Positions 3,192 to 63,906 of a stretch of 64,000 nt of DNA are shown here, piece by piece. This stretch comes from Pseudomonadales bacterium (lineage in GTDB: Bacteria > Pseudomonadota > Gammaproteobacteria > Pseudomonadales > Azotimanducaceae). The stretch is taken from positions 17,895 through 81,894 of the forward strand of contig JAHRVQ010000021.1 in NCBI GenBank assembly GCA_019090615.1. The letters run 5' to 3'. Positions within the stretch are counted from its first letter, which is position 1, and each line of letters starts with the position of its first letter. The translations under genes were made by a program, and so were the position numbers. The notes below the pieces were generated by a model, which saw nothing but the letters and a program-made list of their open reading frames with translations, searched no databases and was not told the origin of the DNA.

Positions 3192-5396
3192 ATGCCTACA
3201 TACCTGAGCAAAATATTGATCGTTGACGACCAAGCTGCCAATCGTCTAGCCATCAAATACATGCTTGAAAAAATCAACATAAAAATTTTTGAGGCCGCTT
3301 CAGGTAAGCAGGCCCTGTCACTAATCCTGAAACATGATTTTGCCGTTATACTCATGGACGTAGTAATGCCAGGGCTTGATGGTTATGAGACTATCCGTCT
3401 AATCCACAGCACCGAACGTTTCCAACAAATCCCCATCGTAATGGTGACCTCTTATGGCACCAAAGAACAATATATCAAAGCCTACGAAGCAGGCGCGGTT
3501 GATTATGTAACCAAACCCGTGGAGCCAATCGTACTCACTAATAAAATCAATCAATTTGTTGAACTCAGTCAGCAGCGAGAAGCCGCTCAAATAGCTCAAA
3601 GAGAACAGGCCATGGTTGCCGCCAGTATGGAAGGCTTACTAAATTCTGCTGGCGAGGGCATATTAGGCATAAATCTAACGGGTGAAATTACTTTCGCAAA
3701 CCCAAAAGCTTGCGCATTGCTGCATGCCCGGAAAGAAAAATTAACTCAAAAAAATATTCAGATTTTTTTCACTTCCGCTGCCAGCCAAGAAATAAATACC
3801 GAACCTGATACTGAGGCGCTTTCTACTAATATTTTTAAATTGTTACGCCGAAAAAGCAGTTTGACGGACACCAATGAGCGCTGGATGACAGTAACAGGAG
3901 AGACATTCTACGTCGAATATAGCTGCGAAATCATCCGCAACAATAAGGGACAGCAAATCGGCGGCGTTGTTACCTTTCAAAACATATCAGAACGTAAAGC
4001 TATCGAGGATAGACTGACACGTTTAGCCAACTATGATCCGCTGACCAACCTGGCAAACCGCGCCTATTTCCACGACACCCTCACTAAAGCGATGGCACGC
4101 TCCAGACGCACGGACAGCAAGCTGGTCTTACTTTTCCTTGACCTTGACCATTTCAAAGATATCAATGACAACTTAGGTCACGATGCCGGCGACCTGTTAC
4201 TAAAAATAGTGAGCCGACGAATCAACCAATGCATACGTGAAGGCGACGTTGCAGCCCGAATCGGAGGAGATGAATTCGCCGTAATTATATACGACATAGA
4301 CTCACTCACTGGCGTTGTCCAAATTGCAGAAAAAATTATTACCACAGTAAACCAGCCCGTCGACCTGTTTGGCACCGATATTACCACCAGCACCAGCATT
4401 GGAATTGCGATATTCGATGACTACAAAACTAACCTCGATGAACTCGTCAAGGCCGCAGATATTGCCATGTATACCGCAAAAACTAATGGCCGCAATCGAT
4501 ACCAGTTTTTTAAACAAAAAATGCAACAACGAGCAACAAAAAAAAGTCGTATTCAAGTGACATTGGCCCAGGCACTCGATGGCAACGAGTTATCAATCAG
4601 CTACCAGCCGAAAATATCGCTCAAAAAATCCCGCGTAATCGGCCTCGAAGCACTCATCCGATGGACTAATAGTAACGGAGAAATAATTGCTCCTAAAGAT
4701 TTCATACCTGTCGCCGAAGAATCAGGCCAGATCCACGCGTTAGGGGAATGGGTATTCGAACGTGTTTGTAGACAAATAAAGTCCTGGCAGGACTTACCCG
4801 GTTTCGATGGCTTATCAATTTCTATCAATATCTCTGCCCTACAACTCAAGGCTGGTGGCTTTCATCGACAGGTAGAAGGAATATTAAATAAACATGAAAT
4901 AGAACCAGGACGCCTTGAACTGGAACTTACAGAAACTGCCATCATGAGCAAACCACTGATCACTGCACGTGAACTACATTTTTTACATGAACTAGGAATA
5001 GGTATTTCTATTGACGATTTCGGCACCGGTTATACCTCATTAAACTATCTGAAACGATTTCCGATTGACGCATTAAAGATTGACCAACGTTTTATCTCTG
5101 CTATTGGCCTTGATGATCGTGACGAAGATGTTATCAAAATTGTTATGGCCATTGGCCGTACCCTGGGTATAGACGTCATTGCTGAAGGCGTGGAAACCAA
5201 TGCTCAACTGGCTTTTCTGTATTCTATTGATTGCGATCTGGTACAGGGTTATTTTTTTAGTGAACCATTAGATCAACAGGGTACCACTAAAATGCTTGAA
5301 GCAATTGGCACAACTTATAGCGATCGTTTTGACAATTTTAAGCGGTATATTAATGACAACAATCTGCAGCCCTTACACGCCGGTAAGTTACATTAA
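3192..5396 (+). CDS. Response-regulator diguanylate cyclase/phosphodiesterase (REC-PAS-GGDEF-EAL)
   Basis: 734 residues. Residues 5-125 form a receiver domain with acidic D12/D13, phospho-acceptor D56 in ILMDVVMPGLDG and a conserved K in YVTKPVEP. A PAS-like sensor follows at about 150-270 (ILGINLTGEITFANPKA). The GGDEF domain is at about 280-440 with an intact GGDEF motif at 358-362. The EAL domain is at about 455-710 with the EAL motif at 486-488 and DDFGTGYTSL. Both catalytic motifs are intact, so it could make and degrade cyclic di-GMP, although one activity usually dominates. It is cytoplasmic with no membrane segment. No cognate histidine kinase lies beside it. Confidence 0.95.
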   Translation: MPTYLSKILIVDDQAANRLAIKYMLEKINIKIFEAASGKQALSLILKHDFAVILMDVVMPGLDGYETIRLIHSTERFQQIPIVMVTSYGTKEQYIKAYEAGAVDYVTKPVEPIVLTNKINQFVELSQQREAAQIAQREQAMVAASMEGLLNSAGEGILGINLTGEITFANPKACALLHARKEKLTQKNIQIFFTSAASQEINTEPDTEALSTNIFKLLRRKSSLTDTNERWMTVTGETFYVEYSCEIIRNNKGQQIGGVVTFQNISERKAIEDRLTRLANYDPLTNLANRAYFHDTLTKAMARSRRTDSKLVLLFLDLDHFKDINDNLGHDAGDLLLKIVSRRINQCIREGDVAARIGGDEFAVIIYDIDSLTGVVQIAEKIITTVNQPVDLFGTDITTSTSIGIAIFDDYKTNLDELVKAADIAMYTAKTNGRNRYQFFKQKMQQRATKKSRIQVTLAQALDGNELSISYQPKISLKKSRVIGLEALIRWTNSNGEIIAPKDFIPVAEESGQIHALGEWVFERVCRQIKSWQDLPGFDGLSISINISALQLKAGGFHRQVEGILNKHEIEPGRLELELTETAIMSKPLITARELHFLHELGIGISIDDFGTGYTSLNYLKRFPIDALKIDQRFISAIGLDDRDEDVIKIVMAIGRTLGIDVIAEGVETNAQLAFLYSIDCDLVQGYFFSEPLDQQGTTKMLEAIGTTYSDRFDNFKRYINDNNLQPLHAGKLH

Positions 5397-55416: not shown

Positions 55417-56415
55417 ATGGATATTAACCACGTCTACGCTTTACACCATCTGCTATCTGATCGCCGCTCACCCCTGCCTTTAAACGACATTTTGCACTCG
55501 TTGGAAATAAAAAAGGCGACTTTTCACCGCATCAAAGCCTATATGCTAGATTGCCTTATGGCGCCCATTCGCAATCAAAAAGGACAGGGATATTATTATG
55601 ACAATCAAACCGATCAGCCACCTTATGAGCTGCCTGGGCTCTGGTTCACGCCGCAGGAACTCACTGCACTGTCTTTATTAGAACAGCTACTCGAAGCCAG
55701 TCAACCTGCAATATTACCGAAACTACTGCTGCCCGTTAAAGAAAAAATGGCACAATTAATGGCAAACCAGGGCATTAACCAACAGGCCTATCAAAAACGT
55801 CTCCGTATCGTGCCGCAATGGCAAAGGCCCTGCGACCCCACTACCTTTACGCTGATATCCCAGGCGCTGCTACAACGCAAACAATTGCATATTAGTTACT
55901 ACACACGCGATACCAATATTCAAAGCCAACGCACCATCAGCCCCCAACAACTGGTTTACTATCGAGACAACTGGTATCTGGATGCCTGGTGCCATGCTAA
56001 AAATGCACTGCGCACCTTTGCAATGGATCAGATCCAGACCCGTACCGCCGGTGATAAGAACCAAACGCCTCATCAACAGGCAACAGATAACCAGGCGATA
56101 GATATAGCCGCCGAGCAACTTGAACAACACTACAGCAGCAGCTACGGCATATTCGCCGGGCAAGCCACCGATATAGCCGCATTAAAATTTTCTGCGCAGA
56201 TTGCCGGCTGGGTAAGCCGCGAACAGTGGCATCCCGATCAAACCGGCGAATGGGATCACAATGGCGCTTACCACCTTAAAGTGCCCTACCATAACCCCAC
56301 CGAATTAATCCTCGATATTTTGCGCTACGGGCCAGATGTGGAGGTGCTTGCACCACGTTCACTACGCCAGGCAGTAAAGGAAAAAATATCTGCCGCATTA
56401 GAACAATATTTATGA
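55417..56415 (+). CDS. WYL-domain transcriptional regulator
   Basis: 332 residues. The N-terminal winged helix (VYALHHLLSDRRSPLPLNDILHSLEIKKATFHRI) is followed by a WYL domain (residues about 140-220: QLHISYYTRDTN, PQQLVYYRDNWYLDAWCH) and a C-terminal WCX module (GPDVEVLAPRSLRQAVKEKI). WYL regulators are often encoded with CRISPR-Cas and other defence genes and may sense nucleic acids. It sits 116 bp upstream of cas1 in the same direction; a 7-bp inverted repeat (AGTCTCA, 56415; TGAGACT, 56427) covers its stop codon. Confidence 0.93.
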   Translation: MDINHVYALHHLLSDRRSPLPLNDILHSLEIKKATFHRIKAYMLDCLMAPIRNQKGQGYYYDNQTDQPPYELPGLWFTPQELTALSLLEQLLEASQPAILPKLLLPVKEKMAQLMANQGINQQAYQKRLRIVPQWQRPCDPTTFTLISQALLQRKQLHISYYTRDTNIQSQRTISPQQLVYYRDNWYLDAWCHAKNALRTFAMDQIQTRTAGDKNQTPHQQATDNQAIDIAAEQLEQHYSSSYGIFAGQATDIAALKFSAQIAGWVSREQWHPDQTGEWDHNGAYHLKVPYHNPTELILDILRYGPDVEVLAPRSLRQAVKEKISAALEQYL

Positions 56416-56530: not shown

Positions 56531-57550
56531 ATGGACCAACTCACCGACCTGAAAGCCATACTCCACTCCAAACGGGCCAATATCTATTATTTGGAATACT
56601 GCCGAGTCATGCAAAAAGATGGCCGAGTGCTCTACCTGACCGATGCAAAATCAGAAAAACAATACTGGAACATACCAATCGCCAATACCACTGTCATTTT
56701 GTTAGGCAATGGCACCTCCATCACCCAGGCCGCGATGCGCATGCTGGCTTCCGCCGGGGTATTGGTCGGCTTTTGCGGCGGCGGTGGCACGCCTTTATTG
56801 ATGGGCAACGAAATTGAGTGGCTGACACCACAAAGCGAATATCGACCCACGGAATATATGCAGGGCTGGATGCAGTTCTGGTTTGACGACGCCAGCCGCC
56901 TGGCAGCCGCTAAACAGCTACAACGATCTCGGCTGCAATATATGCAGACTATATGGGTCAAAGACAGGGACTTGCAGGCAGAAGGGTTTAATGGCAAAGA
57001 CTCGCAACTCATCGGTGCGTTAGAAAATGCCGGCGCGAGAATACAGCATGCAAAAAAAGTCGGCGAGCTATTACAAAGTGAAGCCCAGCTCACCAAACAA
57101 CTGTATAAATTTGCCGTCAACCAAACTAAACATGGCGACTTTGTCCGCGACCGAGATGCCCATGACACGGCCAATGCATTCCTCAACCATGGCAACTACC
57201 TGGCCTATGGACTTGCCGCCACCACCCTATGGGTACTTGGCATCCCCCACGGTTTTGCAGTCATGCACGGCAAAACCAGACGCGGCGCACTGGTATTCGA
57301 TATCGCCGACCTAATAAAGGACACCCTGGTATTACCCTGGGCCTTTATCTGCGCCAAAGAAGGCGCCACCGAGCAGGAATTTCGCCAACAATGTTTGCAG
57401 GCTTTTACCCAACATAAAGCCCTCGATTTTATGTTTGAACAGGTAAAAGATCTTGCCCTCAACCACCCTGCTCAGCCGCCCGCCGCTGATGCCCCGCAAA
57501 CTGAAAACCCACAAATCAACAACCCCGATGCAAAAGGCCCCGCCCAATGA
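56531..57550 (+). CDS. cas1: CRISPR-associated Cas1 (type I-F)
   Basis: 339 residues. The I-F Cas1 catalytic set is visible as E184 (QSEAQLTK), H246 (AVMHGKTRRG), D257 and D260 (VFDIADLIKD), with the same H-to-D spacing as in Pseudomonas Cas1. With Cas2-3 it integrates new spacers. The last 30 residues form a Pro/Gln/Asn-rich tail (HPAQPPAADAPQTENPQ) that is not part of the usual fold. Its stop overlaps the cas2-3 start (ATGA). Confidence 0.97.
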   Translation: MDQLTDLKAILHSKRANIYYLEYCRVMQKDGRVLYLTDAKSEKQYWNIPIANTTVILLGNGTSITQAAMRMLASAGVLVGFCGGGGTPLLMGNEIEWLTPQSEYRPTEYMQGWMQFWFDDASRLAAAKQLQRSRLQYMQTIWVKDRDLQAEGFNGKDSQLIGALENAGARIQHAKKVGELLQSEAQLTKQLYKFAVNQTKHGDFVRDRDAHDTANAFLNHGNYLAYGLAATTLWVLGIPHGFAVMHGKTRRGALVFDIADLIKDTLVLPWAFICAKEGATEQEFRQQCLQAFTQHKALDFMFEQVKDLALNHPAQPPAADAPQTENPQINNPDAKGPAQ

Positions 57551-60453
57551 TGGTGACCTTTGTATCTATGTGCCAAAAGAAAGCCCTGAATAAAACCCGC
57601 CGCGTGCTGGATTCGTTTGCAAATCGTATTGGCGACAATACCTGGCAGACCGTCATCACCCAGGAAGGCCTGCAGGCTGTTAAGAAACTCTTAAGAAAAT
57701 CTGCTAGTAAGAATACCGCAGTGAGTTGTTTTTGGGTTAGGAGCCGTAGCCGTAGTGAATTCATTTGGTCGGTAGGCAATAAAAACAAATTTAATAGTGA
57801 AGGAATTGTACCGGTAAATTACACCAATAATGTTGATGCGCTAAAAATGGATACAACCAACGTGAATATAGAAAACTACTATGCGAACACAAAAAAACAA
57901 CCACTCGACCAGCATTTGTTTGCTGTTGGGTATGTGGCTTATTGTTTATGCAAAGAACTGCTGGATGACGAAAAACTTGCGCAAGCGGTTTTTCTAGCGG
58001 GATGCTGGCATGATTTCGGCAAAATTGACCCAGGGTTTCAAGCCTGGATTACCAATAAAACAAAGAAGAAGTTGATTGAAAGCATTCCCGAAGAGGGCCA
58101 ACATATCGACAAACCCCCTGCGTTTTCTTTCGAAAAACACCCACGACATAATGAAATATCACTATTACTTTATTACCTGTTTGATGATGAAGATGACAAA
58201 TCGGTCAACAAGGAGAATAAGAAACTCATTAAACATACCGTCTACTGGCATCATGCGAAACCCATTCGAAAAGAAGAATTTTCAAAATTAGAAATCATTT
58301 ACAACAAGCTATGCTCAACGCTTGACGATAAATCTATCGACTTCCTCTCACCGATGGTCAAAAACATACATAGCGCTATAAAAGGTATCGCAGAAGCCTA
58401 CGATAGTGATTTGAATATTACAGACATTCTCAAGCGCGCAAATAAAGAAAACTTAGAAGAGCTAAGAATTCCACTACCCGACTACAAAAGCTATGGTGCT
58501 CACGATGATATTGAGCCCTACGTTTTAGATATACAGCGGAACGCCAAAAATAATATCGCTCGGTCAGTAGTAGTCAGCGCCGACAGGCTTGTCTCGGCAC
58601 TAGATTGCGAATCACTAAATGCCCATATTGAACAAAAAACACTATCAGACATCGCGAACAGCGCACTCTTGACCGAACGCGGTTTGATAACAGAAATTAA
58701 AACCTGCCTCGAAGGGTTTGAAGCAACTTATCCTAATAGCGATAGAAATAGACAGCAGAAAGAAGCGGCTCATAAGTTATCCGATGAAGAAGTTGTAGTA
58801 GGCGTACTGAACGGCCCAGCAGGTTGTGGTAAAACCAAAATTGCGCTGGAATGGGCCGCCAACAATTATGCGAAAAAAATCATTTGGATATGCCCAAGAA
58901 TACAAATTTGCCAAGGCCTGATTAACGATTTAACGAGTACGGAATATTTACCAAACACAAAAATAGAAATTTGTACCGGTGAATTTAAGACCCTTTACCA
59001 AAACGGACAACAGTCACCAACACCCAACATGCAAGAGTTCTCAGGTGATATTGTTCTAACCACTATCGATCAGATTGTTAACACGATCACTACCCATACC
59101 AGAGTGGATGGCCTGGTGCAGTTTATGAACGCACATATCGTTTTTGATGAATATCACGAATATATACCAATGAACGGATTTAACCTTTTATTTGCTGAGT
59201 TAGTTGCATGCAAAAAACTACAAAACAATCAATGTAAAACTTTGTTAGTTTCTGCAACGCCTAATTTTAATTTCGTCCATGAGTTGTTAAAAATAGATGA
59301 TATTGTCGGTATTGAGAGTTTCAACAAAAGCCAATATAAAATTGAATTTGTTGATTTTGATAGCAAGCAAGAAGATGAAACAAACCCGTTATATTCTCGC
59401 CAGGAAGCGAGCACATTTGTCGTCAGTAATACTGCTATCGCCGCTCAAAAAAGCTTTATTAGAAACCAAAATAACGAAAACGCTATTCTAATTCATTCAA
59501 AATTCACGCCGTCACATAGAAAAGAGTTGTTCGACAATGTACTGGCCTCTTTTAGACAAAACGGCAGCAAAAAATTCGACATTTTGCGTTCTGGCCCAAT
59601 TGTACAGGCATCATTAAATATTACTTGTCAAAAAATGGTGACAGAGTTTACCAATGCAGAAAACTGGCTGCAAAGAATGGGTCGCCTGGATCGGTTTGGT
59701 GAGAACTCAGAACCCAACCTATATATATCTGCGGTGACTGAGCATGTAAAAAATGGCAAATCACTTGGAAATGCAAAATTTTTAAGCGGCTTATATTGTT
59801 TACAGAGCAGCAAAGCATGGTTTGATTTTTTACAAGAAAACTTGCCGGACGATGGGGTTGTTAGCATTTCAAAAATGTATCAAATTTATAAGGACTTTTA
59901 CAATGATGAAGCCAGCCTTACTGCAATTGAGCAAGATTTGATCTTAGCGTTAAAAAAGAGTGTCCATATAATTGAGCAAAAGATTACTGACCCGATCTCT
60001 TTTCCTGGAAAAACCAAACAACCCAAAGGGCAGATTAAAATCAAAAATAACTCATTACGTGGCAATAATCGTTTTGTACAAATGGCTGTGATCAATGTAG
60101 GCAATGGAAAAACACAATTCCCTGATTCCTACGCCTATGACGAAAATAATTCTCCAGATCAATTAACCATTGGAGTTGAAGTAATTTGTGGGGGCGGAAG
60201 AAGTGAGAGGAACCTTTTATCATTTATGGCAAAAAAACACCACAACATTAAAAGAACATCAGAAAAACCCTATAATGACAACGCCCTCCTTGGAGAAGCG
60301 CGCTCACCCGAAACTCCTATTTATTTAAGCTACACACCAGAAGATTTAGGACAGATTTCCGCAGACCCTAACCCTTACGCCATTTATTACGCTTTGGGTG
60401 CAAACCAGGCCATCGGCGTACTTGCCATAAACGATATATCGCAAATCGATTAA
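57547..60453 (+). CDS. cas3: Cas2-Cas3 fusion nuclease-helicase (type I-F)
   Basis: 968 residues, somewhat shorter than the usual 1050-1100 of I-F Cas2-3. Residues 1-90 are the Cas2-like domain, followed by a linker. The HD nuclease has H123 and WHDFGKID with H155-D156. The SF2 helicase has Walker A GPAGCGKT (423-430) and DEYH (534-537), then SATPNF and QRMGRLDRFG. It degrades targeted DNA after effector recruitment and partners Cas1 in adaptation. The catalytic motifs appear intact. Confidence 0.97.
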   Translation: MMVTFVSMCQKKALNKTRRVLDSFANRIGDNTWQTVITQEGLQAVKKLLRKSASKNTAVSCFWVRSRSRSEFIWSVGNKNKFNSEGIVPVNYTNNVDALKMDTTNVNIENYYANTKKQPLDQHLFAVGYVAYCLCKELLDDEKLAQAVFLAGCWHDFGKIDPGFQAWITNKTKKKLIESIPEEGQHIDKPPAFSFEKHPRHNEISLLLYYLFDDEDDKSVNKENKKLIKHTVYWHHAKPIRKEEFSKLEIIYNKLCSTLDDKSIDFLSPMVKNIHSAIKGIAEAYDSDLNITDILKRANKENLEELRIPLPDYKSYGAHDDIEPYVLDIQRNAKNNIARSVVVSADRLVSALDCESLNAHIEQKTLSDIANSALLTERGLITEIKTCLEGFEATYPNSDRNRQQKEAAHKLSDEEVVVGVLNGPAGCGKTKIALEWAANNYAKKIIWICPRIQICQGLINDLTSTEYLPNTKIEICTGEFKTLYQNGQQSPTPNMQEFSGDIVLTTIDQIVNTITTHTRVDGLVQFMNAHIVFDEYHEYIPMNGFNLLFAELVACKKLQNNQCKTLLVSATPNFNFVHELLKIDDIVGIESFNKSQYKIEFVDFDSKQEDETNPLYSRQEASTFVVSNTAIAAQKSFIRNQNNENAILIHSKFTPSHRKELFDNVLASFRQNGSKKFDILRSGPIVQASLNITCQKMVTEFTNAENWLQRMGRLDRFGENSEPNLYISAVTEHVKNGKSLGNAKFLSGLYCLQSSKAWFDFLQENLPDDGVVSISKMYQIYKDFYNDEASLTAIEQDLILALKKSVHIIEQKITDPISFPGKTKQPKGQIKIKNNSLRGNNRFVQMAVINVGNGKTQFPDSYAYDENNSPDQLTIGVEVICGGGRSERNLLSFMAKKHHNIKRTSEKPYNDNALLGEARSPETPIYLSYTPEDLGQISADPNPYAIYYALGANQAIGVLAINDISQID

Positions 60454-60631: not shown

Positions 60632-60666
60632 TTCAAGTCATGGTCCCAGCTTGACCATGACTTGAA
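60632..60666. repeat. 14-bp perfect inverted repeat between cas2-3 and the crRNA-like element
   Basis: TTCAAGTCATGGTC (60632-60645), loop CCAGCTT, GACCATGACTTGAA (60653-60666). It lies 179 bp past cas2-3 and 8 bp beyond the 3' end of the minus-strand pseudo-array, exactly where a two-sided transcription barrier would be expected. There is no T tract on either strand. Confidence 0.85.
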
Positions 60667-60673
60667 CACTCTT

Positions 60674-60749
60674 GGTCAGTGCTGCCTGTTCGGCAGTGAA
60701 ATTTAGAAATTAGAAAATAGTTTTCTAAGCTACTTGTACAGTAGTCGCC
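60674..60749 (-). ncRNA. Predicted crRNA-like regulatory RNA (two degenerate I-F repeats and a 20-nt pseudo-spacer)
   Basis: Read on the minus strand. Repeat 1 (60749-60722) matches the array repeat at 20 of 28 positions; its hairpin CTACT-GTACA-AGTAG replaces CTGCC-GCACA-GGCAG with two compensatory base-pair changes, and the 8-nt handle CTTAGAAA is unchanged. The pseudo-spacer (60721-60702) is ACTATTTTCTAATTTCTAAA. Repeat 2 (60701-60674) matches at 21 of 28, with hairpin CTGCC-GAACA-GGCAG intact. Cas6f cleavage after each hairpin would give 8+20+20 = 48 nt. The spacer is exactly 12 nt shorter than the normal 32, equal to two 6-nt Cas7 steps. The pseudo-spacer matches the site at 60814-60835. 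Transcription of this RNA is inferred. Confidence 0.85.
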
Positions 60750-60751
60750 AG

Positions 60752-60779
60752 ATTTTACGCCTTGGCGAATATTTGTTCA
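60752..60779 (-). promoter_or_regulatory. Candidate promoter of the crRNA-like RNA
   Basis: On the minus strand TGAACA (60779-60774, four of six to the -35 consensus) is followed after 16 bp by TAAAAT (60757-60752, five of six to the -10). The predicted start, about 60745, falls one or two bases before the first hairpin, so the transcript would begin at repeat 1. A CGCC/GGCG palindrome lies inside the spacer. Confidence 0.4.
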
Positions 60780-60813
60780 TCAGGGTTGTCGGATTTATTC
60801 TTAACGGATTTTA

Positions 60814-60835
60814 AATAGAAATTAGAACATAGTGG
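60814..60835 (-). promoter_or_regulatory. Predicted target (protospacer plus CC PAM) of the crRNA-like RNA upstream of cas7fv
   Basis: On the minus strand CC (60835-60834) is followed by ACTATGTTCTAATTTCTATT. Compared with the pseudo-spacer, positions 1-5 and 7-18 are identical; position 6 differs, as do 19-20. CC 5' of the protospacer is the type I-F PAM. Position 6 is the flipped base that type I crRNAs do not pair. The site is 95-116 bp upstream of the cas7fv ATG and overlaps or adjoins -35 positions for candidate -10 boxes TATAAA (60841) and TATAGT (60856). Confidence 0.85.
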
Positions 60836-60866
60836 CTTTTTATAAACTTATAAAATATAGTGATTA

Positions 60867-60929: not shown

Positions 60930-61931
60930 ATGAATATCATCACAGGAATAAAGAGCGTCGACTTTAAGATCATGGCACTTGGTCACGGCGCAGTGAACTG
61001 GAATGGCCCTACACAGCTCCGTAGCGACAATAAAATTGTTGAAAACCACAGCCTGCCAAAGCTCCGGGGTTACACAAACCTTACGGGTAAAATAAGTGAC
61101 GAAGGCTTTAGTTATAAAAAGAATATTGCGGATATTGATTTCAAGCAAACGCCCCTATATATCAGCCAAAATTGCATACGGCATCATCTTTTTCGAGACC
61201 AGGCATTTGATATTCACTATGCGAACGAAAACAAAATAAATGACCTAAAGGGTGTTTTAGCGTCAATGACTGGTCTAGTTAGAGGATACGTTATTGCATC
61301 AAGTCAATGTAAACGAACCAGTCCATTATTGATGGAAGACTTTGTTGATGAATTGGGCAACGGTAATTTTGAACAAATGGGGCGATCGGGCGGAAAAGAT
61401 GACAAAGCGGCCGCTACAGAAATTGACGGAAAAAAGGTAAAAGCAAAAAAAAGCACCTCCTTTTTTTCAAAAACAACCTTTGGGGATACAAAGTACACCT
61501 CTTACGGCTCAATCAGTATTGAACAATTACAATTTATCTCCCTGGATAAAAAGTTTGACCGCTGTGCCATGGTTATAAAAGAAGGGCAAGGAGAAGAAGT
61601 AGCGCAAGCCGTCCAAGACTACGTCCAATCACTCGACCCGAAATTAAAGCCACAAGCCACATTCCATCAAAACTATGTCCGAGGCGGGACTATTTTCGAA
61701 GAAGGAGAAAATGGTATTTTATTGAACAACGATGCTATACAAGCATTAGTTGAACACGCCTTACAAATGATCAGCGAACTTTCTATTCGTCAGGCAAAAT
61801 CGTATATGTATGTAGACGAAATATTGGTTGACTACAATGACAGCCACAAAATGATGCGCATTAAGCATAGCGAGGGCGATATCGATGAGCAGTCTAACTC
61901 AGATTTCGCCACTTACTTTTACGCAAAATAA
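60930..61931 (+). CDS. cas7fv: Cas7fv, crRNA backbone subunit of the type I-F2 effector
   Basis: 333 residues; AGGGAT precedes the ATG. The N-terminus ([20 protein letters not shown]) and [16 protein letters not shown] loop fit Cas7fv of the minimal I-Fv system known from Shewanella putrefaciens. Several copies coat the spacer part of the crRNA in 6-nt steps. It is the first gene of the cas7fv-cas5fv-cas6f operon and is separated from cas2-3 by 476 bp that contain the crRNA-like element. No cas8f gene is present. Confidence 0.9.
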
Positions 61932-61942
61932 AGGATGGAATT

Positions 61943-62983
61943 ATGAAAATAATCATAGATTATGAATCCTGTTGGCGTAATTCATTTTTGGATGGTGATA
62001 ACAATGTACCTTTGCCAAAAAAAGGACGGAAATTCGTTGCTTCCATGACAAACCTTAGAAAACCTGAAAATTTCATCAAGCGAGAAATTACCATTGATAC
62101 TGTGATGGGGTTGTTAAACAGATTAATAGGTGATCAAAGAAAACTCTACCAGGCAAGAACAAGTGAAGGTTATTATTTTAAAGATATCGATCTACCCGAT
62201 CACCCATCAATCCATTTTCAAGACCTGGTAAATAAAAAAACTGAAAATAGTGAAATGACCTATATTCGAAATATTTCAGGGAGTACAGATCAGAATTCAT
62301 TTACTGGAGCAATAAAAAGTAATGACATAATGTTTTCATCTGATTACTCCGCCGAATTTTGGGGCGTTCTAGCCCTGGAATTTGAAGAGCCATGTGATTT
62401 CATTATTTCAAATAATCGAGTAACAAAAAGCATCGAGACAAACCCAGTCGCGATTATTTCAAGACTAGAAGCATTGAACAAAGAAAAAACCGTTAAAAAT
62501 GAAGGCTTCGCAAATGAGGCAGTAAAAACACTGACTCAAAACTTTGAAGCTGTCGAATACTTAAACAGAAAAGACGAAATAATTCCAATCAGTCTATATT
62601 GTTCGTCGCTTTACCTGCAGCTAGAACGCCTGTCCGGCAGGTTCAATTTGGATTCTGCTAAAACGAAAGCCGGCGGTATTAGCGGCATTTCTAAACGAGG
62701 CTTCACCACCAAAGACTTTATGAACCGTTTCACTACTGGAGAGAAAAAGAAAATATGGGGAAACCCCTATATTCGTAAAGAACGAATTAAAGGGGCTGGT
62801 GAGGTCACCTCATTAATGACCAAAGCCAGCGGCCAACTTGAAATCAATCTCGATATTAGCAGGGAGAAGGCGAAAGAAATAAAAACCATGATCGACAATG
62901 CTGGCGTCTCCAGCTTCTATCTTGGTAAAAAAGGACTAGCCTATATATCCGCGCCAATTGACACCAGGGAGTTGAGACGATGA
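61943..62983 (+). CDS. cas5fv: Cas5fv, handle-binding and PAM-recognising subunit of type I-F2
   Basis: 346 residues; AAAGGATGG precedes the ATG. The opening ([20 protein letters not shown]), [16 protein letters not shown] and [19 protein letters not shown] match the Cas5fv sequence type. In the I-Fv structure Cas5fv caps the 5' handle and carries an extra helical domain that replaces the missing large subunit and reads the PAM. It is 11 bp after cas7fv and overlaps cas6f by 4 bp. Confidence 0.9.
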
Positions 62984-63531
62984 ATTTTTATATCAATATA
63001 AAAATAATTCCCGATGCAGAAATGCGACAAAACGTTTTGTTAAACAAAGTTTATAGCAAACTACACAAAGCACTTTTTACACTAAATTCGACCAATATAG
63101 GAATTAGTTTCCCCGCCTACGAACTCATGTTGGGCGATATTATTAGGCTCCACGGAGACAAGGACAGTCTCGCAGCGTTACAGCAAACAAACTGGCTTGG
63201 CGGCCTAATAGGTTATTGCGAGGTAAGTGTTGCTAAAACCATCCCCAATCAAGTGCTTTATAGGACAGTGTCACGTAAACAATCCAATATGACGGAAGCA
63301 AAATTGAGGCGACTCATAAAAAGAGGATCAATATCCAACGACGATATAAAATCTTATAAAGCTAAAATGTTTGCACAAGGATTAGACGATCCCTATCTGG
63401 AACTTGAAAGCGCATCAAATGGCTATAAACACCGGCGCTATATTCAGTTCGGGCAATGTAGTCAACACGCGCAAGTAGGTATATTCGATCAATTTGGATT
63501 AAGCAAAACTGCCACCGTCCCGTGGTTTTAA
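62980..63531 (+). CDS. cas6f: Cas6f (Csy4) crRNA-processing endoribonuclease
   Basis: 183 residues, the family length. Catalytic H29 (KLHKAL) is at the same position as in Pseudomonas Csy4. The segment [18 protein letters not shown] aligns with the Csy4 active-site serine region (S144 or S146 here). The Arg-rich helix [15 protein letters not shown] matches the hairpin-groove-binding helix. It cuts repeat RNA 3' of the CTGCC/GGCAG hairpin and should also process the crRNA-like RNA, whose hairpins keep the closing C-G and A-U pairs. Confidence 0.96.
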
Positions 63532-63818: not shown

Positions 63819-63906
63819 GTTCACTGCCGCACAGGCAGCTTAGAAAAATCGGCGCACTAGCTTGTCATTGTCCAACAAGTTCACTGCCGCACAGGCAGCT
63901 TAGAAA
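63819..63906 (+). CRISPR. Type I-F CRISPR array, two repeats and one spacer
   Basis: Two identical 28-bp repeats (63819-63846 and 63879-63906) begin GTTCACTGCC, contain the CTGCC-GCACA-GGCAG hairpin and end CTTAGAAA. One 32-bp spacer (63847-63878) starts AATCGGCGCACTAGC. Sizes fit I-F exactly. No third repeat occurs at the expected position (63939) or before the window end. Further arrays could exist elsewhere in the genome. Confidence 0.98.

Follow-up and report, generated by a model that had tools for sequence, protein, structure and literature searches.

A probable CreR-type guide cassette between cas2-3 and cas7fv, predicted to control the effector genes of a minimal type I-F2 CRISPR-Cas locus

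A crRNA-like cassette that lies between cas2-3 and cas7fv of a minimal type I-F2 CRISPR-Cas locus very probably encodes a CreR-type guide RNA, with which the I-F complex would repress its own effector genes cas7fv, cas5fv and cas6f. This reading is based on the comparison of sequences: the spacer of the cassette matches a CC-flanked site just upstream of cas7fv, the match is retained in related loci, and guides of the same design are found upstream of csy1 in I-F1-type loci. CreR is known in types I-B, I-E and V-A, and type I-F is not among the subtypes named as shown in the sources consulted (PMC13131331, PMC12737573). No description of CreR in type I-F was found in the literature searched; the primary CreR paper may contain I-F cases.

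The locus, its guide cassette and the target site

The window, i.e., the 64,000-nt stretch of contig JAHRVQ010000021.1 (GCA_019090615.1) that was analyzed, carries cas1f, cas2-3, cas7fv, cas5fv and cas6f in this order from cas1 to the array (Table 1; coordinates are window positions). As Cas7fv, Cas5fv and Cas6f are present and the operon has no Csy1, the locus was assigned to type I-F2 (I-Fv). It resembles the I-Fv system of Shewanella putrefaciens CN-32, which was compared by description only, in having the same kinds of Cas7fv, Cas5fv, Cas6f and Cas3, an 8-nt CUUAGAAA tag and a 20-nt 3' end of the mature crRNA, and a GG/CC PAM; His29 is essential in the Cas6f of that system, and no guide in its cas operon is mentioned in the part of the source consulted (PMC4605320). 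Two more arrays with I-F-type repeats, containing GGATA and GCACA loops, are located elsewhere in the same genome (contig C19, 23221-24563 and 29341-29963; L002 and L003), and none of the ten ORFs tested near them matched a cas family.

Table 1. Coordinates of the I-F2 locus, the guide cassette and predicted elements in the window
Feature	Position	Strand	Basis
cas1f	56531..57550	+	TIGR03637, E 8e-147
cas2-3 (I-Fv type), preceding the gap with the cassette	57547..60453	+	PADLOC Cas3fv, 1335.7 bits
Degenerate repeat 2: hairpin intact in its 20-nt part (60682-60701), degenerate trailing handle (60674-60681)	60674..60701	-	
Predicted mature guide RNA, 48 nt: 8-nt handle, 20-nt spacer, 20-nt 3' hairpin end	60682..60729	-	modelled on I-Fv crRNA ends (PMC4605320)
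Guide spacer, 20 nt; positions 1-5 and 7-18 match the target	60702..60721	-	
Degenerate repeat 1: hairpin CTACTGTACAAGTAG and 8-nt handle CTTAGAAA (60722-60729)	60722..60749	-	
Guide promoter-like site TGAACA-16-TAAAAT	60752..60779	-	consensus match; 3 such sites found by the scan vs 1.8 in shuffles
Target: CC PAM (60835-60834), protospacer positions 1-18 (60833-60816)	60816..60835	-	
Predicted cas7fv promoter: -35-like GTGGCT (60832-60837), 18 nt, -10-like TATAGT (60856-60861)	60832..60861	+	-35 by eye
cas7fv	60930..61931	+	NF040577, E 6.6e-141; PDB 5o6u
cas5fv	61943..62983	+	PDB 5o6u chain F, E 1.4e-134; PADLOC Cas5fv
cas6f (csy4)	62980..63531	+	TIGR02563; PDB alignment; His29 present
Array: two repeats GTTCACTGCCGCACAGGCAGCTTAGAAA (63819-63846, 63879-63906) with one 32-nt spacer between	63819..63906	+	

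The gap between cas2-3 and cas7fv is 476 bp long and contains the cassette on its minus strand. As a preliminary description of this DNA had claimed, two degenerate I-F repeats with preserved hairpins are present there, the stem of the first (CTACT/AGTAG) differing from that of the array repeat (CTGCC/GGCAG) by two compensated pair changes; the second has an intact CTGCC/GGCAG stem and has lost its handle. The cassette is thus a crRNA-like gene with degenerate repeats beside cas genes, one of the features by which CreR is recognized. Among the seven loci with such a cassette (the window and six relatives, see below), invariant columns account for 13/15 of the repeat-1 hairpin, 7/8 of the handle and 16/20 of the repeat-2 core, compared with 0/5 of the 5' flank of repeat 1 and 0/8 of the repeat-2 handle. 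Conservation therefore tracks the predicted mature RNA, the pattern expected if Cas6f cuts at the foot of both hairpins. Pairing between handle and seed is predicted in the free guide RNA of the window (60682-60729; z -4.5) and, in all, in four of the five I-F2 guides folded (window, L008, L019 and L067; absent in L023, with L041 and L112 outside the set). On reading the sequence, an inverted repeat of 14 bp that has no T run was noticed next to repeat 2, toward cas2-3 (60632-60666).

The spacer matches its target at 17 of the first 18 positions, position 6 being the sole mismatch, and the CC PAM is directly adjacent, all of which had been proposed earlier and was recovered here. The target site is 94 bp upstream of cas7fv. 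When the whole genome (4,881,849 bases) was scanned for CC followed by exact matches at positions 1-5 and 7-18, only this site was returned; allowing up to three mismatches yielded three further places, one of which is the guide itself, with AA in place of CC, so that the guide's own gene would escape targeting. When the 180 nt beside cas7fv were shuffled 20,000 times with dinucleotides preserved, CC together with the ten seed letters appeared once, and the same control gave 0, 0, 0, 1 and 0 occurrences for five relatives (L112 left out).

Promoters and terminators are consensus matches throughout this work. All seven loci have a TAAAAT or TACAAT hexamer immediately 5' of repeat 1. On the other side, the -35-like GTGGCT of the window overlaps the complement of the PAM, and a TATAAT-like hexamer leading into cas7fv is located 18-20 nt past the PAM complement, with 6/6 letters in the six relatives and 5/6 in the window (shuffles reach 6/6 in 0.8% and 5/6 in 14%). 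The predicted cas7fv promoter of the window is weak, GTGGCT being a poor -35 and TATAGT a 5/6 -10, and it is absent from the list of the promoter scan. A guide match to a cas promoter, which is also characteristic of CreR, was found together with a PAM in 7/7 loci, the promoter itself being predicted. In L023 and L041, terminator-like sites separate the cassette from the gene upstream of it, so that cas7fv likely depends there on the targeted promoter. The scan found none between cas2-3 and cas7fv in the window, and in L008 and L067 none was found to precede the cassette on the plus strand, so upstream read-through could bypass repression in these three loci.

Cassettes in I-F2 relatives

An alignment scan for Cas7fv in a collection of genomes from 84,980 species identified 155 relatives, the best 80 of which were kept and, with one viral contig, gave 81 loci. 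In 68 of these, cas7fv starts no more than 20 bases from the end of the upstream gene. The cassette was found in five of the 81 (L008, L019, L023, L041 and L067) and not in the other 76; the titles of the five records read Methylococcales, Methylococcaceae, Methylovulum, Crenothrix and Methylococcaceae, respectively. These cassette-bearing relatives are methanotrophs, and the order to which the genome of L023 (and Methylovulum) belongs is the Methylococcales. A gapped pattern search of 311 genomes of this order, 40 of which have Cas7fv, detected the cassette in six genomes (the sixth being that of L112/L088) and not in the other 34 Cas7fv-containing genomes; these six and the window constitute the seven loci compared here. 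A motif match in another genome of the order (L087) was rejected, as it had neither a second repeat nor a cas context within 400 bases.

Across the seven loci, the target is matched in all 70 cells of guide positions 1-5 and 7-11, compared with two of seven at position 6 and one of seven at position 12. Where the guides differ within the seed, the targets differ in the same way: position 5 is C in both guide and target of L019 and L067 and T in both elsewhere, and position 11 is T in both for L023 and A elsewhere. L023 and L041 have almost identical cassettes, and the only difference within their mature guides, at position 11, is mirrored in the target; it looks like a compensatory change, although the change in the target forms the edge of a five-base block. 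Random re-pairing of guides and targets preserved all matches in 48 of 5040 orders, a figure that is no probability, since the seven loci are related and their matches are not independent. Thus, wherever two pseudo-repeats were found between cas2-3 and cas7fv of an I-F2 locus, spacer and target still match, the joint changes at positions 5 and 11 included; both pseudo-repeats persisting next to a lost match, which the preliminary description had named as evidence against a guide, were seen in no locus.

The long cas2-3/cas7fv gaps of L005, L006, L027 and L082 contain no such element, and the apparent long gap of L009 proved to be an artefact of failed ORF detection. Beyond the five guide loci, a search for ectopic repeats in the 81 loci gave scattered weak hits, array-like repeats and a lone repeat in L036; the latter (4898-4925, in a record titled Deltaproteobacteria) is a single degenerate repeat in the cas2-3/cas7fv gap without a partner. 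Among mobile elements, four Cas7fv records are from plasmids, and in the two inspected (L134 and L135) cas7fv begins one base past cas3; no Cas7fv match was found in phages, and the one Cas7fv locus among viral contigs (L085) lacks the cassette. In two relatives, a toxin-antitoxin-like pair is encoded on the cas strand between cas2-3 and the cassette (L023, 4121-4752; L019, 3965-4590), with a PIN-domain protein in L023 and similar frames in L019.

In a Cas7fv tree of 82 rows, separating six rows with a guide from seven rows with a gap but no guide requires at least five changes (the other 69 rows being uncounted). L023 and L041 share a cassette yet have Cas7fv proteins in different groups of the tree, so the cassettes likely move by recombination. 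The Cas7fv of the window is nearest to a Methylomonas sequence (85%), and a second Cas7fv was found in none of the four other genomes of the host's genus and in none of the 205 other genomes of its family, which suggests that it arrived horizontally.

Guides upstream of csy1 and the length of spacers

A covariance model built from six I-F2 guides detected, in further genomes of this order, mini-CRISPRs with short spacers, many of which sit between a cas2-3-sized ORF and the effector operon. As array repeats also score with this model (922 matches; 108/311 genomes), matches were not counted as guides without inspection. The genes were identified as Cas3f, Csy1, Csy2, Csy3 and Csy4 in L158 and as Csy1 in L156, and the type of the other I-F1-type loci was deduced from gene sizes and a Csy1 search. 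All csy1-like places in the 311 genomes served as the denominator (75, with 73 scanned), the weakest of which, at 25-28% identity, may be other I-F types. By strict rules, a guide is present in 23 of the 73 (loci within L156-L175 and L176-L248), and relaxed rules that include the target match added six (L187, L190, L194, L196, L198 and L211), some of them with another repeat-1 hairpin.

All 23 guides lie on the strand opposite csy1, and together they carry 20 different seeds. Every one of them has, on the side facing csy1, a target flanked by CC that shows no more than one mismatch when position 6 is disregarded (16 with none and 7 with one). Controls reached the same threshold in 14 of 1594 pairings of guides with regions from other loci and in 15 of 1150 with shuffled guides. 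Within positions 1-15, mismatches are concentrated at positions 6 and 12 (26/46, vs 9/298 elsewhere); position 12, which had no part in the choice of targets, is mismatched in 12 of the 23 loci, compared with 0, 1 and 1 at positions 13, 14 and 15, and the match fades past position 16-17. In 15/23 loci, the -35 motif TTGA begins 0-2 nt beyond the PAM complement (vs 2.3% of shuffles). The -10 hexamers have 3 to 5 of 6 letters, hardly above shuffles and indistinguishable from chance. The target is located 52-82 nt before csy1 in 18 loci and at 105, 195, 281, 302 and 901 nt in the remaining five. In L163 (6025-6086), a guide that has its own CC-flanked match (mismatches at positions 6 and 9) precedes a 1117-aa cas2-3-sized ORF instead of csy1. 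Downstream of the guide, and on its strand, an ORF of 161-163 aa with a GNAT acetyltransferase domain occurs in L163, L169, L170 and L173, and in L169 and L170 it lies between the cas2-3-sized ORF and the guide.

In an I-F1 system, the length accommodated by the backbone has been described as L = 6N-4; complexes with truncated spacers form R-loops, cutting by Cas2/3 takes place only with spacers of full length or longer, and complexes shortened by at least 18 nt no longer hindered phage, as far as the source was consulted (PMC7296934). The 20-nt spacer of the window corresponds to N = 4. The earlier proposal of a spacer that is 12 nt, or two Cas7 steps, short fits the window; in the six I-F2 relatives, spacers are 12-14 nt long, the length at which I-F1 complexes stopped hindering phage. 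Among the 30 loci of both kinds, the lengths of 27 spacers deviate by at most one base from 14, 20, 26 or 32. Shortening this ladder by one base gives an equally good fit (27/30), whereas shifts of 2 or 3 bases fit 3/30 and shifts of 1 or 4 bases fit 16 and 14; the 6-nt step is thus supported, with its exact phase defined to within one base. One I-F1-type locus (L232) has a 32-nt spacer with a partial match only.

Proposed control of the effector genes and alternative readings

Transcription, processing, loading, repression and relief may be pictured as follows. A transcript would begin at about repeat 1 from the minus-strand promoter-like site, and Cas6f would cut at the foot of both hairpins to release a 48-nt RNA with the CUUAGAAA handle and a 3' hairpin, the form known from I-Fv crRNAs. 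The complex loaded with it, its backbone shortened by the 20-nt spacer, would recognize CC, pair with positions 1-5 and 7-18 and flip out position 6. As the site lies at the predicted -35 region, its occupancy would block RNA polymerase, and since the R-loop would stay below full length, Cas2-3 would probably not cut, to judge from the I-F1 truncated-spacer data. Array crRNAs or anti-CRISPRs that occupy the complex would relieve repression and allow more effector to be made, by analogy with CreR in other subtypes. Autorepression of the operon had been proposed in the preliminary description; relatives support its match between guide and promoter, and the predicted repressed unit has to be narrowed from the whole operon to cas7fv-cas5fv-cas6f, as the targeted promoter comes after cas1 and cas2-3. 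Against the CreR-type reading count the poor cas7fv promoter of the window, the possible read-through, the 12-14-nt spacers of the I-F2 relatives, the many Cas7fv loci without a cassette, the chance-level -10 matches and five distant targets of the I-F1-type loci, and the handle-seed fold predicted for the free guide RNA of the window.

The cassette is comparable to CreR, as described in the sources at hand, in its predicted crRNA-like RNA and its partial match to a predicted cas promoter and, if the prediction holds, in the absence of toxin coupling and in autorepression relieved by crRNAs or Acrs. It differs in that the guide is divergent within the cas2-3/effector gap, only the effector half is behind the targeted promoter, and spacers are shorter than 32 nt and vary in steps of about 6 nt. 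Archaeal and bacterial CreA guides also have two divergently degenerated repeats and a seed of positions 1-5 and 7-11 with 6 and 12 free, but they were tested in the haloarchaeal type I-B Cascade and repress creT, according to the part of the source consulted (PMC8501985).

With moderate confidence, the finding may be generalized: both I-F1 and I-F2 systems may carry a recurrent "private thermostat" consisting of a truncated-spacer guide and a matching promoter between the cutting and the effector genes. Such a device would exert feedback on the effector complex only, and co-drift of guide and promoter (reflected in the different seeds of the I-F1-type loci) would spare neighbouring systems. 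Spacers that vary in Cas7 steps of about 6 nt would permit binding without calling Cas2-3, the cassette appears to be exchanged independently of cas7fv, and the handle-seed pairing predicted in most of the I-F2 guides folded may make the guide a weak competitor and hence a sensor of free complex. If the CreR-type reading is right, RNA-guided self-control would extend to type I-F, including the minimal I-F2, whose complex has already been made into a compact genome-editing tool, as reported in the part of the source consulted (PMC12714560). The thirty natural guide-promoter pairs would serve as a ready collection of mutants for short-match I-F binding that presumably does not involve cutting, with positions 6 and 12 free and length changing in 6-nt steps. 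The reading also offers a testable reason for split operons and may provide a natural reporter of anti-CRISPR activity and of unoccupied effector complex.

The closest competitor of the CreR-type reading is a toxin guard of the CreTA kind, in which the guide would be an antitoxin (CreA) repressing a small toxin RNA, creT, encoded between the target and cas7fv, and would make the CRISPR system addictive. The nearest published anatomy that was found, one not named in the preliminary description, is indeed the I-F1 CreTA of Acinetobacter sp. WCHA45, LoGeW2-3 and ANC3789, which is nearly identical in its cas3-csy1 gap, two pseudo-repeats, CC PAM, divergent guide and, in WCHA45, 20-nt spacer; as described in the part of the source consulted, its target gene is a conserved 33-bp mini-ORF, creT, with a Shine-Dalgarno site, and the guide binds downstream of the start point (PMC10097628). 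In favour of this rival, the leader of the window contains a four-codon ATG frame and a small hairpin. Unlike in Acinetobacter, the site here borders on the predicted -35 region and is followed by an effector gene. Furthermore, the six I-F2 leaders (the window and five relatives, L112 left out) have no mini-ORF in common and, by eye, no Shine-Dalgarno site at upstream starts, and at the distance from csy1 seen in 18 of the 23 I-F1-type loci, a leader of only about 15-45 nt would remain if the -35 is as predicted. A creT in the form of a conserved mini-ORF with a Shine-Dalgarno site under a promoter was thus not found, a test that reaches ORF toxins and not a toxin RNA without an ORF. As no mini-ORF is common to the leaders compared and there is little room in most I-F1-type loci, the cassette was placed with CreR on features testable in sequence, and a CreTA toxin guard is considered improbable and much less likely than CreR-type control.

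It is still less probable that the cassette is the decaying, functionless remnant of a shrunken array that had taken up its spacer from the cas7fv promoter in the past. Degenerate repeats, a single spacer, a self-target and the degenerate handle of repeat 2 would all be expected of a remnant, but decay is unlikely to spare exactly the predicted mature RNA, the seed match has been kept with co-changes in seven I-F2 loci, and the arrangement recurs with 20 seeds upstream of csy1; relative to CreR-type control, a remnant is much less likely. A role in immunity or competition, either as a regulatory decoy or as a Racr-like RNA mimic used as an anti-CRISPR, is equally doubtful. The two repeats are of the kind bound by Cas6f and the complex, and the promoter match could be a side effect of shared ancestry of both stretches. 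Racrs, however, have been described as solitary repeat mimics in viral genomes (PMC10651486, in the part consulted), whereas the element here lies inside a cas operon and combines two repeats with a targeting spacer; its target is flanked by a PAM, mismatches fall at positions 6 and 12, and an 18-letter form of the conserved motif had no exact match in IMG/VR viral contigs. Chance similarity in A/T-rich intergenic DNA, in which single seeds do recur (as in the cross-locus pairs with at most one mismatch), has a negligible probability and is much less likely than the CreR-type reading, given at most one hit in 20,000 shuffles per locus and matches in 7/7 and 23/23 loci, and conservation already refutes it.

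A WYL/WCX-domain protein encoded directly 5' of cas1 (window 55417-56415) is a possible second regulator, acting on the cas1/cas2-3 half of the operon.
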